Positions 21,154 through 29,549 of a DNA stretch of 40,450 nt are shown here, in pieces. The DNA lies in contig PABO01000021.1 of the NCBI GenBank assembly GCA_002699165.1, positions 2,882 through 43,331 of the forward strand, given 5' to 3'. The position numbers and the translations under genes were made by a program. Position 1 is the first letter of the stretch; every line of letters begins with the position of its first letter. The DNA is from Chloroflexota bacterium. Its GTDB lineage: Bacteria; Chloroflexota; Dehalococcoidia; Lucifugimonadales; Lucifugimonadaceae. Below the pieces are notes generated by a model. The model saw only the letters and a program-made list of their open reading frames with translations. It made no database searches and was not told the origin of the DNA.

Positions 21154-21372
21154 ATACTTTCCTTTATTTATAGCTTTATAGTGTTTATTCTTTTAAAATG
21201 GATTAATAAATTAAAAGGTTATTGATACCACAAACTACTAGTATACGAATTTTCTACCTTAAACGTCAACGAAAAAAGGTTAAATTTGTAAGTAATTTTT
21301 GCAAATAGTATTTTTCTCTTCCTGATTTTCGTTATAAAATTAGCCTTATTAGAAATTTTAAATACTTAAATT
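21154..21372. other. Divergent intergenic region rpsL / regulator
   Basis: This is the largest gap in the window (219 bases) and is strongly A/T-rich. It holds the rpsL promoter facing left. Facing right, toward the regulator at 21373, there is only a weak candidate: a TATAAA at 21333-21338 without a clear -35 box, and no Shine-Dalgarno before the ATG. I find no tRNA, small ORF or repeat here. Confidence 0.7.
21240..21269 (-). promoter_or_regulatory. Sigma-70-type promoter for the ribosomal cluster
   Basis: On the minus strand TTGACG (21269-21264) and TATACT (21245-21240) are separated by 18 bases, close to the housekeeping consensus. Transcription would start near 21233 and leave a leader of about 80 bases before rpsL. 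It is the only strong promoter I can find upstream of rpsL and so probably drives the str-S10-spc-alpha run. I see no convincing attenuator hairpin in the leader. Confidence 0.75.
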
Positions 21373-22149
21373 ATGTACAAAATTATAAATTTATTTGGTT
21401 TTAACCTAAGGTCTGAAGATTACATTATAAAGATTATAAGAGAATCTTTTAAATCTGCTGATATATTTTGCATCGAGGATTTTGAAATAGATGATAATCA
21501 GGAAAAGATATTATTAAAAGTCAAAAACAATAATCACCCACTAATAGATAAGGAAAATAATTCTATAGAATTTATCAATTTAGGTTCCAATCAAAATCAG
21601 GATAGCTTGAGCATAATAAATCTTCCATCATCTTTTTCTGAAAATTATTCTCAACTAATTGATCAAGATTTCCCTAAGATTTTTAATTTTGAGGATCATA
21701 AAATTTTTGAAACATATTTTTTCAACAAAAAAGATCTTTCAAATCAGATAGTAACTATGCCTATTTCTGAAAAAGACTTAGTAACAAAAATACAAATATG
21801 TTTCTATCAATCAAATATACTTAGTGAAAACATTAAAGAAGAAAAAATAATAAGCCAAGGCATGTTACAAATTGACACAGAAAAATATCTAGTAACTCTT
21901 GAAGGGAAAAAGATAGATCTTACTTTTAAAGAACTAGAATTACTCAAGGTTTTATCTTCTAATCCAGGAAGAGTTTTTTCAAGAGAAAATCTATTAAAAA
22001 ATATCTGGGATTATGACTATTATGGAGGAACAAGAACAGTAGATGTTCATGTAAGAAGACTTAGAAGAAAAATTGAAGATCATAAGTACCATTTTATAGA
22101 AACAATATGGAATGTTGGATATAAATTTAATGAGATAGAAATAGGATAA
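21373..22149 (+). CDS. GlnR-like OmpR-family orphan regulator
   Basis: A 258-residue DNA-binding regulator. Residues about 163-254 are an OmpR/PhoB winged helix-turn-helix: LTFKELELLKVLSSNPGRVF, SRENLLKNIW, then the recognition helix and wing GGTRTVDVHVRRLRRKIED and ETIWNVGYKF. The YYGGTRTVDVHVRRLR wording is what I recall from GlnR nitrogen regulators of Actinobacteria and relatives. The N-terminal 150 residues resemble a receiver only vaguely: no acidic pocket is evident, and the invariant Lys-Pro near the end appears as T-M-P (residues 128-130). No histidine kinase is adjacent. Only four bases separate it from glnA, so I infer a nitrogen-assimilation regulator working without phosphorylation. 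The weakest point is the exact ligand or signal. Confidence 0.8.
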   Translation: MYKIINLFGFNLRSEDYIIKIIRESFKSADIFCIEDFEIDDNQEKILLKVKNNNHPLIDKENNSIEFINLGSNQNQDSLSIINLPSSFSENYSQLIDQDFPKIFNFEDHKIFETYFFNKKDLSNQIVTMPISEKDLVTKIQICFYQSNILSENIKEEKIISQGMLQIDTEKYLVTLEGKKIDLTFKELELLKVLSSNPGRVFSRENLLKNIWDYDYYGGTRTVDVHVRRLRRKIEDHKYHFIETIWNVGYKFNEIEIG

Positions 22150-22153
22150 TTTT

Positions 22154-23443
22154 ATGAATAATAATTCAGATACTAAAGAATATATATTACGTCAAGCAAG
22201 TGAGCATGATGTTAAATTTATAAGGTTATGGTTTTGTGATATTTTGGGAAGATTAAAAGGATTTGCTATTAATGTTGAAGATCTTGAAGATTGTATTGAT
22301 AAAGGTGTTATTTTTGACGGAGGAGCGATAGAAGGGCTCGCAAGACAAGGGGAATCAGATACAATTGCAACTCCAGACTTAAATACTTGGCAAATTTTAC
22401 CCTGGCGACCAGATGAAAATTCTGTTGCTAGACTTTTTTGTAACTTAAATTCATTTAGTAATCAAGAAAAAGTTATTGATAGTAGAAATGTTCTACAGAA
22501 GAATTTAATGAAGGCAAACAAAAATGATTATAAATTTTATTTGTCTCCAGAAATAGAATTTTATTACTTAGATAGTGAGAAAAAAATTGTCGATGAAGAT
22601 GATGCAGGATATTTTGATCAGAGATCTGTTGTAAATAGAGGGTCAAATTTTAGAAGAGAATGTGTTTTGAGTTTAGAAGAAATGGGAATCCCAGTAAGAT
22701 CTTCCCATCACGAAGTTTCTATGAATCAACATGAAATTGGGCTAAGACATACAGATGCGCTGACTATGGCAGATTCAATTATTACTACCAGATTAGTAGT
22801 AAAGCAAACTGCATTAAACCATCAAGGTTTTGCAACATTTATGCCAAGGCCTTTTGGAAATCTAAATGGAAATGGATTACATTTATACTTATCTCTTTAT
22901 CAGGGAGACGAAAATGTTTTTTATTCAGAAAATACAAAAAATAATTTATCTAATTTAGGTGAAAATTTTATGGCAGGAATTTTAGAATACTCTGCAGAAA
23001 TGAGTATTTTGACAAATCAATGGATAAATTCATATAAAAGATTGCTTCCTAATCTTGAGGCGCCTGTTGCAGGTAAAGACTTATCAAATAATATTTCAGA
23101 CATAATACGAATCCCTAACATACTTAAGGGAGACAATAATAATGCAAGAATTGAGTTCAGATTACCTGATTCAGCCTGTAACCCATACTTAACTTTTTCA
23201 GCTATACTTCACGCTGGTTTAGAAGGAATAAAAAATGACATCAAAATAGAAAAAAAATGGAAATCGAATATTCCTTCTAGTCTATATGAGGCAATTAAAG
23301 TTTCTGAAAATAGCAATTTTTTAAAGGACGCAATAGGTAATGAAGCCTATAATAGTATCTTAGAGAATAAAGAAAAAGAGTGGATTGAACATCATTCAGT
23401 AGTCACAGACTATGAAAGAAAATACTATATGAAATTTCTGTAG
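22154..23443 (+). CDS. glnA: Glutamine synthetase, type I-like
   Basis: Glutamine synthetase makes glutamine from glutamate, ammonia and ATP. The 429-residue protein has the GS-I layout. D55 in FDGGAIEG is the subunit-interface residue; metal ligands are E133/E135 (SPEIEFYYL), E187 and E194 (HHEVSMNQHEIG), H243 (GNGLH) and E334; R296 (NSYKRL) and R336 (EFRLPD) are substrate residues. Odd point: the usual NRSAxIRIP reads NISDIIRIP, so the arginine equivalent to E. coli R339 is isoleucine 314, while R319 (R344) remains. The adenylylation NLY motif is absent, so E. coli-style GlnE control is unlikely. An AGGA stretch precedes the ATG. A glutamine-synthetase-like ligase acting on another amine is an alternative, but the gltBD neighbourhood favours nitrogen assimilation. 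Confidence 0.85.
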   Translation: MNNNSDTKEYILRQASEHDVKFIRLWFCDILGRLKGFAINVEDLEDCIDKGVIFDGGAIEGLARQGESDTIATPDLNTWQILPWRPDENSVARLFCNLNSFSNQEKVIDSRNVLQKNLMKANKNDYKFYLSPEIEFYYLDSEKKIVDEDDAGYFDQRSVVNRGSNFRRECVLSLEEMGIPVRSSHHEVSMNQHEIGLRHTDALTMADSIITTRLVVKQTALNHQGFATFMPRPFGNLNGNGLHLYLSLYQGDENVFYSENTKNNLSNLGENFMAGILEYSAEMSILTNQWINSYKRLLPNLEAPVAGKDLSNNISDIIRIPNILKGDNNNARIEFRLPDSACNPYLTFSAILHAGLEGIKNDIKIEKKWKSNIPSSLYEAIKVSENSNFLKDAIGNEAYNSILENKEKEWIEHHSVVTDYERKYYMKFL

Positions 23444-23459
23444 TAATTAAAATTTGTGA

Positions 23460-23509
23460 TTACTAAAATTTAGTAAAACTTAACATCTTTGTAACGGATT
23501 TGAGATAAT
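23460..23509 (+). promoter_or_regulatory. Candidate nitrogen operator and promoter before gltB
   Basis: The 90-base glnA-gltB gap contains three things. A perfect 17-base palindrome, TTACTAAAATTTAGTAA, lies at 23460-23476. Two similar half-sites, TTAAC (23480-23484) and GTAAC (23491-23495), are spaced 11 bases apart, one helical turn, as OmpR-family proteins prefer and similar to the GlnR box gTnAC-n6-GaAAC. A -10-like GATAAT is at 23504-23509. The half-sites cover the -35 position, which fits an activator. The palindrome might instead be a weak terminator, but it has no T-run after it. Confidence 0.4.
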
Positions 23510-23533: not shown

Positions 23534-26500
23534 ATGAGCCAAAAAATAAAAAAATTAGAAAACCTAAATAAACTTAAACAAGAAGGTTTATGTACTTATC
23601 ATATGGATAAGGACGCTTGCGGAGTAGGGGTTGTTGCAAATATAAAAGGCAAAAAATCTAATACTATCGTTCAAAACGCACTAGAAGTTTTGGTAAATTT
23701 AGAACATAGAGGAGCTTGTGGATGTGATCCGGAAACAGGAGATGGAGCGGGCATAACCATCCAAATTCCAGATAAATTTATAAGGAAAGAGTTTGAAAAT
23801 TTAAGTATAGATCTTCCAAAACAAGGTTCTTACGCAACAGGAATAATTTTTTTACCTTCTGAGAATTCTTTGAGGGAGAAAATACTTGATATTATCAATT
23901 CAGTTATTAAGTCTTCTGATACCGGTTTAATAAGACTAAAAGACGTTCCAACTAATCCTGATGCTATAGGCGAATGGTCCAGAGATGCTATGCCTTCAAT
24001 AAAGCAAATTTTTATAGAAAATATAAAAAATATGCACGACAAAGATTTTTCTAAAGAATTATATATTTTGAGAAAAAGAATAGAAAAAAAAGTTGAAGAA
24101 TTAAAGGATAATAAAAATAAATTAATTATAGAAAATGAATTTTATTTTTGCTCCTTATCAAACAAAATTATTATATACAAAGGTCTACTTAAGACTGAAC
24201 AAGTATCAAATTTTTATTTAGATCTAAAATCTAGTGATATTGAAAGCTGTTTTGGCTTAGTCCATTCAAGATTCTCAACTAATACTTTAGGTTCATGGAA
24301 ATTAGCACATCCCTACAGAATGTTGGCTCATAATGGAGAAATTAATACTGTCAGAGGCAATAGAAACTGGATAAAAGCTAAAGAACAAAATTTAGTAAGT
24401 GAAAAATTCCCCAATAATAAAGATATTCTTCCTATATGTGAAGAAGACGCCTCCGATACTGCTTCATTAGATAATGTTTTTGAGCTTCTATTTCATGGTG
24501 GAAGAAGTATCGAACATGTTGCATCAATGATGATTCCTGCGGCTTGGGATCATAATAATCATATGGATCAAAAAACAAAAGATTTCTATCAATATCACTC
24601 AGGCCTCATGGAAGCATGGGATGGACCTGCAATGGTAGCTTTTACGGATGGGAATAAACTAGGAGCATGCTTAGACAGAAATGGGTTTAGACCTTTTAGA
24701 TATACAGTAACAAATGATGACATTCTAGTTATGTCTTCTGAAACAGGAGTTCTTGAGATAGACTCAAAAAAAATAAAACTTAAGTCTAGAATGACACCAG
24801 GAAAAGGATTTTTAGTAGATTTTGAGGAAGGTAGAATTATTGACTCTGAAGAAATAATGAATCGGCTAGTAAATCAAAAACCTTACTCTGAATGGATCAA
24901 TAAAAATTCTATAAATTTAGATGATATTGAAAATATTGAAAATAATGAAAAATTATTTAATTATGAAGGAGTAGAGCTTCTTGAGCAACAAATGGCCTAT
25001 GGTTATTCTAATGAAGATGTAGAGATATTGATAAGCCCTATGAGTTCAACTGGAAGTCAGCCAAATGGCTCAATGGGAAACGATGCACCTTTAGCCGTTT
25101 TGTCTGATAAGCCTCAAAATTTATTTTCATATTTCAAGCAATTATTTGCTCAAGTCTCCAATCCCCCATTAGATCCAATTAGAGAAAAAATGGTAACTCA
25201 AGTAAGCATACTAGCTGGTAAAAGAGAAAATTTACTCTCTGAAACAGCTTCACATGCAGAGTTAATAAAAATAGAGAGACCAATTTTACTTAATGAAGAA
25301 CTAAGCAAAATTCTAAGAATAAAGAAAAATGGAATAAAAGCTAAAAAAATATCTACGCTTTTTAAGGTAAACGAAGGCAAAAAAGGATTTAATGATTCTC
25401 TAGAAAAAATCAATAAGAATGCAGAAAAATTAATTGAACAAAACGTATCAATAATAGTTCTATCTGACAGAGGAGTAGATGAAAAAAATGGTGCTTTGCC
25501 CTCTCTACTTGTAGCAGGATCATTACATCACCATTTAATTAGAAAAAATTTAAGAGATAAAGTAGACTTGATATTTGAAACAGGAGAAGCAAGAGAAGTA
25601 CATCATTTTGCTCTATTATTTGGGTATGGTATTTCAGCAGTCAATCCTTTTATTGCTTTAGATACAGTTAGAAATTTATCTAATAAATCTGATTCAATAA
25701 AGAATCAAGAAAATTATTGTAAAGCCGCTATGTTGGGAGTTTTGAAAACTATGTCCAAAATGGGGATCTCAACAATGCAAAGTTACATGGGAGCCCAGCA
25801 ATTTGAAGCTATAGGTATAGGAGAAGATTTAATCAACAAGTCATTTACATGGACTCCTTCTAGAATCGGAGGGATTGGATTAGATGAAATAAGTGATGAT
25901 TATTTACTTTTTCATAATAACGCTTTTTCAAACTCAGAAATTCCTTCAAACCTAAAGTTGGATTTAGGAGGATTATATTTATGGAGAGGCACAGGAGAAA
26001 GACATATGTGGTCTCCTGAAACTATATCATTACTTCAAAAAGCTTCTACTCAAAATGACTCAATTACGTATGAGGAGTTTGAAGAAGCGGCTAATAAAGA
26101 TTATTATGGCGATATTACAATAAGAAATTTACTAGAAATAGATTATAAAAATTCAAACTCAATAGATATCAATGAAGTAGAGTCAGAATTAGATATACTA
26201 AAGAGATTTGCTACAGGAGCAATTTCTTTAGGTTCTATTTCTCGAGAAGCTCATGAAACATTAGCTATAGCCATGAACAGAATAGGTGCAAGGTCAAACA
26301 CCGGAGAAGGTGGAGAAGATCAATCAAGATTCATCCCCGATCCTAACGGAGATTCTAGAAACTCTGCAGTTAAACAAGTGGCATCAGGAAGATTTGGAGT
26401 AACAACAAATTATTTAGTGAATTCAAAAGATATTCAGATAAAAATGGCTCAAGGAGCAAAACCAGGAGAAGGTGGAGAAATACCTGGTCATAAAATTTCT

Positions 26501-28102
26501 GAATATATTGCATCAATAAGAAAAACTACACCCGGAGTTGAACTGATATCCCCTCCACCACATCATGATATTTATTCAATTGAAGATATGGCTCAACTAA
26601 TACATGATTTAAAAAATGTAAATGAGGATGCCCGTATTCATGTTAAGCTAGTCTCAGAAGTAGGAGTTGGAATTATCGCAGCAGGCGTTTCTAAAGGGAA
26701 AGCTGATGTAGTTCTTATTTCAGGCTTCTCAGGGGGAACAGGTGCATCTCCTTTATCCTCTATTAGGCATGCAGGATTACCTTGGGAGTTAGGAGTTGCA
26801 GAAACTCAACAAGTCTTAGTTGAACAAGGTCTAAGAGATAGAATTATTGTTCAAACTGATGGTCAACTAAAAACAGGAAAAGATGTTGCAATAGCTGCTA
26901 TGCTTGGGGCTGAAGAATGGGGAGTTGCAACAGCATCACTCATTACAATGGGATGCATAATGTTAAGAAAGTGTCACTTAAATACTTGTTCAGTTGGAGT
27001 TGCTACTCAAGACCCAGAATTAAGAAAACTATTCAAGGGAACTCCTGAAGCTGTGGTTAATTATTTTAGATTTATTGCTAAAAGCTTGAGAAAAGAAATG
27101 GCAAAATTAGGATTTAAGACTGTAAATGAAATGGTAGGAAGAGTCGATAAACTTGTTCAAAGAAAAGATATAGATCACTGGAAAGCAAAAAAAATAGATT
27201 TATCTAGAATTCTCTATAAACCTAATGGAATTGAAGGCCAAAAATCATTTTGTAATACTTCTCAAGATCATCAATTAGACATAGCTCTAGATAAAGAAAT
27301 TATTAGAAATATCAATCTAGAAAATCTTCAAAAAACCAAACAAGAATTAAATTATAAAATCAAAAATATAAATAGGACCGTAGGTGCTATAATCTCTGGT
27401 AAATTAACTAAAATGTTTGGTGAAAAGGGAATCCCTTCAGACAACTTAAAAATAAATTTTGATGGATCAGCAGGACAAAGCTTTGGAGCATTTCTTTCTA
27501 AAGGTATTTTCTTCAACTTAATTGGAGATGCAAATGATTATTTCGCTAAAGGTCTATCTGGAGGGAAAATAGCAGTTAGCCCAGATAGAATAAATCCTGA
27601 TTTTATAGCTGAAGAAAATATAATTATTGGAAATGTTGCCCTGTATGGTGCAACTGGTGGTGAGGTTTACATAAATGGTAAGGCTGGAGAAAGATTCTGT
27701 GTAAGAAACTCAGCTGCAGAAGCTGTTGTAGAAGGTATAGGAAATCATGGATGTGAATATATGACTGGTGGAAATGTTGTAGTTTTAGGAGAAGTTGGAA
27801 GTAATTTTGGTGCAGGAATGAGTGGAGGAATTGCCTATATTTATGACTCAAAATCAACTTTTGAAAAAAACTTTAATTCTGAACTATCAGATATTGAAAA
27901 AGTTTTAGTAAAATCAAAAGATGAAGAAAAACTATTACTTCTTCTTAGAAATCATATTAAATATACTAATTCTGAACAAGCAAATAGAATATTAAGTAAC
28001 TGGAAGGACGAAATAGGTAAATTTAAGAAAGTCATTCCAAGAGACTACGCAAAAATTTTAGACCAAAAAGAAGCGAAAAGAAAAGAAAAAATAAATGGGT
28101 AA
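23534..28102 (+). CDS. gltB: Glutamate synthase large subunit
   Basis: GltB converts glutamine and 2-oxoglutarate to two glutamates using electrons delivered by GltD. The 1522-residue protein has a short propeptide ending before Cys29 in DACGVG, the N-terminal nucleophile of the class II amidotransferase domain (about 29-430). A linker domain (about 480-770) and the FMN synthase domain (about 850-1220; motifs SNTGEGGEDQSRF, GAKPGEGGEIPGHKIS, SGFSGGTGASPLSSIRHAG) follow. The 3Fe-4S cysteines are C1141, C1147 and C1152. A GxGxG beta helix lies at about 1270-1470 (GNVALYGATGGEVYINGKAG, GMSGGIAYIYD). No Shine-Dalgarno is visible; a T-tract precedes the ATG. It overlaps gltD by eight bases. Confidence 0.97.
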   Translation: MSQKIKKLENLNKLKQEGLCTYHMDKDACGVGVVANIKGKKSNTIVQNALEVLVNLEHRGACGCDPETGDGAGITIQIPDKFIRKEFENLSIDLPKQGSYATGIIFLPSENSLREKILDIINSVIKSSDTGLIRLKDVPTNPDAIGEWSRDAMPSIKQIFIENIKNMHDKDFSKELYILRKRIEKKVEELKDNKNKLIIENEFYFCSLSNKIIIYKGLLKTEQVSNFYLDLKSSDIESCFGLVHSRFSTNTLGSWKLAHPYRMLAHNGEINTVRGNRNWIKAKEQNLVSEKFPNNKDILPICEEDASDTASLDNVFELLFHGGRSIEHVASMMIPAAWDHNNHMDQKTKDFYQYHSGLMEAWDGPAMVAFTDGNKLGACLDRNGFRPFRYTVTNDDILVMSSETGVLEIDSKKIKLKSRMTPGKGFLVDFEEGRIIDSEEIMNRLVNQKPYSEWINKNSINLDDIENIENNEKLFNYEGVELLEQQMAYGYSNEDVEILISPMSSTGSQPNGSMGNDAPLAVLSDKPQNLFSYFKQLFAQVSNPPLDPIREKMVTQVSILAGKRENLLSETASHAELIKIERPILLNEELSKILRIKKNGIKAKKISTLFKVNEGKKGFNDSLEKINKNAEKLIEQNVSIIVLSDRGVDEKNGALPSLLVAGSLHHHLIRKNLRDKVDLIFETGEAREVHHFALLFGYGISAVNPFIALDTVRNLSNKSDSIKNQENYCKAAMLGVLKTMSKMGISTMQSYMGAQQFEAIGIGEDLINKSFTWTPSRIGGIGLDEISDDYLLFHNNAFSNSEIPSNLKLDLGGLYLWRGTGERHMWSPETISLLQKASTQNDSITYEEFEEAANKDYYGDITIRNLLEIDYKNSNSIDINEVESELDILKRFATGAISLGSISREAHETLAIAMNRIGARSNTGEGGEDQSRFIPDPNGDSRNSAVKQVASGRFGVTTNYLVNSKDIQIKMAQGAKPGEGGEIPGHKISEYIASIRKTTPGVELISPPPHHDIYSIEDMAQLIHDLKNVNEDARIHVKLVSEVGVGIIAAGVSKGKADVVLISGFSGGTGASPLSSIRHAGLPWELGVAETQQVLVEQGLRDRIIVQTDGQLKTGKDVAIAAMLGAEEWGVATASLITMGCIMLRKCHLNTCSVGVATQDPELRKLFKGTPEAVVNYFRFIAKSLRKEMAKLGFKTVNEMVGRVDKLVQRKDIDHWKAKKIDLSRILYKPNGIEGQKSFCNTSQDHQLDIALDKEIIRNINLENLQKTKQELNYKIKNINRTVGAIISGKLTKMFGEKGIPSDNLKINFDGSAGQSFGAFLSKGIFFNLIGDANDYFAKGLSGGKIAVSPDRINPDFIAEENIIIGNVALYGATGGEVYINGKAGERFCVRNSAAEAVVEGIGNHGCEYMTGGNVVVLGEVGSNFGAGMSGGIAYIYDSKSTFEKNFNSELSDIEKVLVKSKDEEKLLLLLRNHIKYTNSEQANRILSNWKDEIGKFKKVIPRDYAKILDQKEAKRKEKING

Positions 28103-29549
28103 ATCCTCAGGATTTAAAGAAGTAAATAGGAACACAGAAAAACGTCTTGCTGTAAGTAAACGTGTAAAAAACTGGAAAGAAATATATATTCCATGGTCAA
28201 AAAAGGAGGCCTCTGTTCAAGCCTCTAGATGTATGGATTGTGGGGTCCCTTTTTGTAATAATGGATGTCCATTAGGGAACTTAATTCCAGAATGGAACGA
28301 TCTTGTTTACAAGCAAGATTGGGAAACTGCATACCAAAGACTTTCTGCAACCAATAATTTTCCCGAATTTACAGGTAGAATTTGCCCTGCTCCATGTGAA
28401 GCTTCTTGCACATTATCAATAAATAATGATCCAGTCAGTATAGAAATGATCGAAAAAAATATAATCGAAAAAGCCTTCGAATCTGGATTTGTAAAACCAG
28501 AACCTCCTACATTTAGAACTGGTAAAAAAATAGCTGTAATTGGTTCTGGACCTGCAGGTTTAGCAGCTTCCCAGCAACTTAATAGAGCTGGGCATAAAGT
28601 TACTGTTTTTGAAAGAAGTGATGAACCTGGAGGCTTATTGCGATATGGTATCCCAGAATTCAAATTAGAAAAAAATATAGTTCACAGAAGAATTGATTTG
28701 ATGAAAGAAGAAGGAATAGAATTTATTTGTTCAACAAATGTTGGAATAGACATAACAGCTGAAGAATTACAAACAAACTTTGATGCTATTTGTCTTGCTG
28801 GAGGGTCTACGGTTCCAAGAGATCTTCCCATTGATGGAAGAGCTTTAGATGGGGTTCATTTTGCAATGGAATTCCTTTCTCAGCCTAATTGGGTGGGAGA
28901 ATCTGAAAAAGTTCCGATTTCTGCAAAAAACAAAAATGTAGTAATAATTGGTGGTGGAGATACAGGAGCTGATTGTTTAGGAACTTCAATAAGACAGGGT
29001 GCTAAAAAAATTACACAAATTGAAATTTTACCAGAACCTCCTGAATCAAGAAAAAAAAATAACCCTTGGCCAGAATGGCCAATGATATTAAGAACATCAT
29101 CTGCACATGAAGAAGGTGGAGAGAGAGACTATAACGTCTTAACTAAAAACTTCTCTGGAAATGGCAAAGTAGAAAAACTGATTTGTGAAAAAGTTGAGTG
29201 GGTTGATAATGATGAAACAGGAAGGCCAGATCTTAAGCCAATAGAAAATAGTATATTCAAGATTGAAGCGGATCTAGTATTACTAGCTATGGGATTTGTT
29301 CATCCTTTACAAGAGGGATTATTGAATGACTTAACTGTTGAGTTTGATGAAAGAGGAAATGTTAAGACGGACAAAAATCTAATGACTAATATAGAAGGTG
29401 TTTTTTCCTGTGGTGATATGGAAAGAGGTCAATCTCTAGTAGTGCATGCTATAGCAAGTGGAAGAAGTTGTGCAAAAAAAATAGATCTATTCCTCGAAGG
29501 AAAATCTAGTTTGCCCGATGTAAGAGGATATTTTAGAAATTTTAAATAA
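28095..29549 (+). CDS. gltD: Glutamate synthase small subunit
   Basis: GltD oxidises NAD(P)H and passes electrons through FAD and iron-sulfur clusters to GltB. The 484 residues are the usual length. Cluster cysteines C46, C49, C54 and C58 (RCMDCGVPFCNNGCPLGN) and a second set in GRICPAPCEASCTL are present. The FAD Rossmann motif is AVIGSGPAGLAASQQLNRAG with EPGGLLRYGIPEFKLE, and the NAD(P)H site is VVIIGGGDTGADCLGTSIRQ. GDMERGQSLVVHAIASGR closes the FAD domain. The overlap with gltB suggests coupled translation and equal stoichiometry. Fifteen bases separate it from nadE. Confidence 0.97.
   Translation: MGKSSGFKEVNRNTEKRLAVSKRVKNWKEIYIPWSKKEASVQASRCMDCGVPFCNNGCPLGNLIPEWNDLVYKQDWETAYQRLSATNNFPEFTGRICPAPCEASCTLSINNDPVSIEMIEKNIIEKAFESGFVKPEPPTFRTGKKIAVIGSGPAGLAASQQLNRAGHKVTVFERSDEPGGLLRYGIPEFKLEKNIVHRRIDLMKEEGIEFICSTNVGIDITAEELQTNFDAICLAGGSTVPRDLPIDGRALDGVHFAMEFLSQPNWVGESEKVPISAKNKNVVIIGGGDTGADCLGTSIRQGAKKITQIEILPEPPESRKKNNPWPEWPMILRTSSAHEEGGERDYNVLTKNFSGNGKVEKLICEKVEWVDNDETGRPDLKPIENSIFKIEADLVLLAMGFVHPLQEGLLNDLTVEFDERGNVKTDKNLMTNIEGVFSCGDMERGQSLVVHAIASGRSCAKKIDLFLEGKSSLPDVRGYFRNFK

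Follow-up and report, generated by a model that had tools for sequence, protein, structure and literature searches.

A GlnR-type regulator with a probable degenerate receiver domain and its probable role in nitrogen assimilation in a lineage of Chloroflexota

Among described systems, the closest point of comparison for the regulator analyzed here is actinobacterial GlnR, which one review presents as an orphan and atypical regulator whose Asp-50 is unphosphorylated and, together with Arg-52 and Thr-9, makes the dimer (PMC10704036). The same review describes an activation complex in which four DNA-binding domains of GlnR are bound head to tail, gives the published GlnR boxes as GTnAC-n6-GTnAC and t/gTAAC-n6-Gc/aAAC, and mentions that both Ser/Thr phosphorylation and acetylation have been reported for GlnR from S. 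coelicolor (PMC10704036). It also presents Bacillus GlnR as a regulator controlled by feedback-inhibited glutamine synthetase (GS) (PMC10704036). Because actinobacterial GlnR is thus already orphan, atypical and not phosphorylated on Asp (PMC10704036), the idea of a phosphorylation-independent nitrogen regulator, which was put forward in a preliminary description of the DNA analyzed here, is less new than that description implied.

In this report, we focused on a regulator gene in a window of 40,450 nucleotides (the whole stretch of DNA that was analyzed) from a genome of 1.38 Mb in 37 contigs, which is 88% complete. A "SAR202 cluster bacterium" and "Chloroflexi bacterium TMED70" are among its close relatives, and the host lineage is a part of the Chloroflexota that includes a MAG labelled SAR202. 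The gene (21373-22149, plus strand) encodes a GlnR-type OmpR-family regulator of 258 aa, one of five OmpR-type winged helix-turn-helix (wHTH) proteins in the genome. Full-length orthologues with 52-60% identity are present in seven of the eight other genomes of the genus, the eighth being only 64% complete, and the reading frame is therefore not a chance one. Its product consists of an N-terminal putative degenerate receiver domain (residues 1-155, 21373-21837), recognized from the strand/helix order in AlphaFold2 models and from matches to receivers, with PF00072 absent, and of a C-terminal winged helix (residues 178-252, 21904-22128), Trans_reg_C being the sole Pfam family past the cut-off. 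Elsewhere, a stand-alone OmpR-type winged helix of 90 aa without an N-terminal domain is encoded at L095:2749-3021 (G000 C7).

The GlnR-like character that the preliminary description ascribed to the C-terminal winged helix, in which residues 214-231 read YDYYGGTRTVDVHVRRLR, is upheld by comparison with solved structures. When a 29-member profile of the regulator family (alignment A2 counts 29 rows once L016 and the duplicate L011 are left out) was compared with the PDB, three GlnR chains scored 156, 153, and 143 bits, versus 117 bits for VicR, which came next. According to their PDB titles, 8hig and 8hml are the DNA-binding domain of S. erythraea GlnR on DNA, and 8hih is an initiation complex with M. 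tuberculosis GlnR. The match to the closest entry is not confined to the winged helix but extends N-terminally into the receiver portion (profile positions 48-222). A MerR-type GlnR/TnrA is ruled out, as there is no MerR-type HTH and only Trans_reg_C passes the Pfam cut-off. Judged by its sequence, the protein is a GlnR-type regulator rather than a plain GlnR member because one reported feature of GlnR, the Asp, fails.

Loss of the receiver phosphorylation site is a property of the whole clade. We aligned 8 orthologues from the genus and 22 from the rest of the family with two canonical response regulators from the same genome as controls, both of which carry the Asp, the Thr, the Lys, and the acidic pair. 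The phospho-Asp is kept in 0/30 orthologues and so is the receiver Lys (0/30), which rules out a canonical response regulator. In all eight genus sequences, the acidic pair is replaced by Gly-Phe and the phospho-Asp by Asn, while the 22 others have Trp, Ser, Pro, or Ala at the latter position. In the window, G9-F10 (codons at 21397-21402) takes the place of the acidic pair in the alignment, the phospho-Asp site reads N83, L84, P85 (N83 codon at 21619-21621, placed by alignment and model), and M129 (codon at 21757-21759), within T128-M129-P130, falls in the column that holds the receiver Lys in the two canonical regulators. The preliminary description was thus accurate in finding no recognizable acidic pocket in the N-terminal part and a methionine, in T-M-P, for the receiver Lys; an intact Asp and Lys on alignment to a canonical receiver, which it had named as the contrary finding, is seen in none of the orthologues. 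Gly9 and Pro130 hardly vary within the family. Six relatives from the same class (L157, L158, L161, L163, L165, and L167) retain both Asp and Lys without the usual acidic pair, and the loss of the site may therefore have been gradual.

PF00072 is matched by none of 29 family members at E ≤ 1. Profile comparison links the N termini of the family to those of the class relatives with a probability of 96.8%, and the class relatives to canonical receivers with 98.5%; the genus N termini give no match (0.2-1.0%), with 0.7% for receivers and 0.4% for the family's own N termini. AlphaFold2 models built from four sequences (L008 and L010, which have undetermined residues, were left out of alignments A1 and A3, leaving four rows in each) have low confidence (pLDDT 62.6 over the full length and 65.1 over residues 1-158). 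At that confidence, they display the strand/helix order of a receiver, with N83 ending β3, M129 following β5, and two extra strands where α2 is expected. These strands correspond to a genus-specific insertion (residues 40-75, 21490-21597) containing an HPL motif that is invariant in the four sequences of alignment A1. In VIA comparisons, the low-confidence full model matches the PmrA receiver 9of5 (Z 10.0, rmsd 3.0, 115 residues aligned), and the domain model, also of low confidence, in which the last helix is not formed, has the response regulator 3eqz first (Z 7.7, rmsd 3.1, 103 aligned), with generic α/β folds alongside. A Foldseek search with the domain-only model returned no match at E 0.001. 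Structure prediction for residues 1-155, which the preliminary description had suggested, may point to a receiver by strand/helix order and by the presence of receivers among the best VIA matches, but in low-confidence models and with an empty Foldseek result for the domain. We read the domain as a probable receiver relic whose divergence is greatest in this genus.

Downstream of the regulator gene, on the same strand, lie a GS gene, gltB (glutamate synthase large subunit, 23534-28102), and gltD (small subunit, 28095-29549); its divergent neighbor is rpsL, with rpsG and fusA, an arrangement (named by position and sequence) that is conserved. A promoter-like TTGACG-18-TATACT precedes rpsL on the minus strand (21240-21269), and five genus relatives retain the CACAAACTACTAGTATACGAAT block around it. 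The order regulator-GS-gltB-gltD next to rpsL occurs in all eight loci of the genus (the window and 7/7 others). Elsewhere in the family, 14 loci from other genera all adjoin rpsL and 10 of them have the full order, so that the linkage of homologues to GS and gltBD anticipated in the preliminary description does exist. The four exceptions all belong to one genus, g9 (L056, L057, L060, and L062). Outside the family but within the order, six loci were inspected, and no GS, gltB, or gltD was found near the regulator in any of them.

A missing kinase partner, also proposed earlier, appears to hold for this genome but not for the family as a whole. No kinase gene lies beside the regulator in the window. 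Across the genome, two matches to PF00072 exceed the cut-off, both with a kinase gene of their own after them, and a third match is weak; HATPase matches comprise two beside these canonical regulators and three others, which look like GyrB-type and MutL-type genes by sequence. No spare kinase was found in the genome because both regulators that pass as receivers adjoin kinases of their own. In genus g9, however, a GAF-histidine kinase gene lies directly 3' of a regulator without phospho-Asp and Lys. HisKA and HATPase domains are confirmed there in L060 and L062, while in L056 GAF repeats run as far as the end of the contig, and in L057 just a fragment of a kinase is present. A small stand-alone protein with a weak receiver match below the cut-off (20.6 bits) is encoded at L091:1829-2260 (G000 C27).

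The gene that follows the regulator was described earlier as glnA, starting four bases later. A GS-like gene does start four bases past the regulator stop (22154-23443, plus strand, 429 aa), but the canonical glnA is elsewhere, on contig C21, and since this second gene scores 427 bits versus 294, the GS in the window is a divergent paralogue. It is also under the NCBIfam GlnA cut-off (331 versus 429). The Arg of the NRS motif in the canonical enzyme, which presumably corresponds to E. coli Arg339, is missing in 14 of 15 GS copies beside the regulator (L008 and L010 left out), and in the remaining one it falls on an undetermined residue. Most of the other motifs that were compared are preserved in the same copies. 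This paralogue might be a sensor that meters glutamine or ammonium and signals to a rebuilt N-terminal domain by protein contact, a doubtful proposal in our estimation. If true, it would represent an OmpR-type counterpart of the MerR-type GS-GlnR coupling in Bacillus.

Candidate binding sites for the regulator are concentrated upstream of amtB. In this genome, amtB1-glnK is preceded by TTTAC-6-GAAAC-6-GTAAC-6-TAAAC-6-GTAAC, and amtB2 by TTTAC-6-GAAAC-6-TAAAC-6-GTAAC-6-ATAAC. A three-unit pattern has five matches in the whole genome, four of which are at these two promoters (six matches for a reversed-pattern control). In nine genomes of the genus it has 25 matches, some of them related and overlapping and hence not independent, versus 26 for the reversed-pattern control; it is therefore the location of the matches, not their count, that carries the argument. 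Nineteen of the 25 are located upstream of an amtB match, at a distance of 54-103 bp, and cover 12 of the 18 amtB genes of the genus. Of the six others, four are inside reading frames (L104, L118, L125, and L128), one overlaps a frame end (L111), and one is under no frame of at least 80 aa (L124). A looser box of the published type is present upstream of 14/18 amtB genes in the genus (shuffle mean 0.14, maximum 2) and, among the matches listed, of 18/24 in other genera (shuffle mean 0.48, maximum 3), these 24 being the non-genus loci examined from among the more than 90 amtB matches that were listed for 55 of 61 genomes. The upstream count omits L084, which is only the 3' half of a split amtB. 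Altogether, GlnR-type boxes, often in arrays phased by 11 bp, precede 32 of the 42 amtB genes examined (about 0.6 in shuffles), versus 5/42 on the opposite strand, in upstream regions whose G+C content ranges from 0.18 to 0.67. Two observations concern the amtB loci themselves. The PII protein (glnK) encoded behind amtB1 (L089:4057-4410, G000 C11) is unusual in its T-loop region, FTGRGSSTQNRSSVPK, which lacks the Tyr that is presumably the usual site of uridylylation, and at G005:C7:45008-46211 amtB is split over two overlapping reading frames, possibly by a frameshift or an assembly error.

Within the window, a GlnR-type box (TTAAC-ATCTTT-GTAAC, 23480-23495, plus strand) found by both pattern and matrix lies upstream of gltB. 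A matrix trained only on boxes from other genera ranks it first of 80,870 window positions, and the region that had been suggested for DNA-binding assays, 23460-23509, indeed contains this best box. It overlaps the promoter-like -35 of a sigma-70-like TTAACA-18-GATAAT (23480-23509, plus strand), a consensus match of a kind no commoner than in shuffles. Of the six genus loci scanned, that of this species alone has the gltB box, which is absent from the five relatives, and a conserved gltB box is therefore ruled out; by eye, there is none in L097 or L098. Ahead of its ATG, the canonical glnA gene on contig C21 carries the box TTAAC-AGTTTT-GTAAC. The background of the matrix scan includes good sites at C8, at C15, and inside the glnA coding sequence that score as high or higher. 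Autoregulation via a GlnR box is ruled out, as the regulator itself has no box upstream in the genus loci scanned (0/6).

Together with the observed domain make-up, residue loss, synteny, and boxes, these data lead us to propose, with a probability of roughly 0.7, that the regulator is a GlnR-type orphan activator of nitrogen assimilation, from the OmpR/PhoB family, that is independent of Asp phosphorylation. Its winged helix would bind head-to-tail GTnAC/GAAAC units spaced 11 bp apart at its predicted targets, which are amtB(-glnK) and the canonical glnA, joined in this species by gltB, and binding would most likely activate these genes under nitrogen limitation. The receiver relic would be unable to accept a phosphate on Asp in the usual way, and its most likely role is in the assembly of dimers or tetramers on DNA, as reported for actinobacterial GlnR. 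Without an aspartyl phosphate, activity must be set in another way, which could be a ligand, contact with another protein (PII or GS, for example), a different covalent modification, of the kinds reported for S. coelicolor GlnR (Ser/Thr phosphorylation and acetylation; PMC10704036), or the amount of protein. We infer binding to the boxes, activation, and the mode of nitrogen sensing. The direction of the preliminary description was right; a metabolite or GS itself, which it named as possible signals, would be two candidates among those just listed. The kinase in genus g9 speaks against a blanket rule that the kinase partner is missing.

Other explanations were weighed against the orphan activator. 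The amtB arrays could belong to a different OmpR-type regulator, with the protein studied here controlling other genes and its linkage to GS-gltBD merely positional. The genome offers four other wHTH proteins for such a role, the regulator's own promoter lacks a box in the six genus loci scanned, and the linkage is missing in four family loci. Yet the arrays match the published GlnR box (PMC10704036), it is the winged helix of this regulator family that is closest to GlnR, and two canonical regulators are next to kinases of their own, all of which makes this explanation unlikely.

That the regulator is still driven by a kinase, through an unusual acceptor residue and by a kinase whose gene lies at another locus or in sequence absent from the assembly, appears very improbable, since Asp and Lys are lost in every orthologue, those beside the g9 kinase included, and the only two kinases found in the genome sit beside canonical regulators; in its favor are that same GAF-histidine kinase following the regulator in g9 and a genome that is 88% complete. 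A further view holds that the N-terminal domain has ceased to be a receiver and has been rebuilt from a different source, so as to recognize a new ligand or partner. The genus-specific insertion, the negligible profile probabilities (0.7% to receivers, 0.4% to the family's own N termini), and the lack of a Foldseek match for the domain-only model at E 0.001 speak for it. We nonetheless regard it as quite unlikely in view of the near invariance of Gly9 and Pro130 across the family, the receiver strand/helix order in the models with receivers among the best VIA matches, and the stepwise profile links from family to class (96.8%) and from class to canonical receivers (98.5%).

If the regulator is the orphan activator that we propose, a clade that has kept the GlnR winged helix and its boxes and lost the structural Asp suggests that this residue is dispensable, which narrows the search to other contacts, and an uncultured marine group gains a predicted nitrogen regulon. 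Our literature search found no paper joining SAR202 and GlnR; judged by title, it gave none on the present topic for GlnR, Chloroflexi, and nitrogen, and nothing usable for SAR202 nitrogen genes and RegPrecise regulons.

Comparison with known systems places this regulator nearest to actinobacterial GlnR, with which it shares the closest winged helix among solved structures, an orphan gene, a degenerate phosphorylation pocket and, at the level of predicted sites, boxes of the GTnAC-n6-G(A/T)AAC type in head-to-tail arrays before amtB and glnA. It differs in that actinobacterial GlnR keeps a structural Asp-50 (PMC10704036), whereas the Asp is absent in 30/30 orthologues here. Two more differences are an insertion of 30-40 residues in the genus regulator and a gene whose order relative to a GS paralogue and gltBD is fixed. 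To our knowledge, none of the aspartate-less or pseudo-receiver proteins ChxR, RitR, and HP1043 is a nitrogen regulator. They combine a receiver relic that has no usable phosphorylation site with an OmpR-type winged helix, and are mostly orphans (PMC12632262, PMC4395418); the present protein, with its probable receiver relic, resembles them in this, but its domain falls below Pfam receiver detection. With GlnR/TnrA of Bacillus, finally, it shares the predicted control of nitrogen genes including glnA, although those regulators belong to the MerR fold family, whereas the protein described here has an OmpR-type wHTH.
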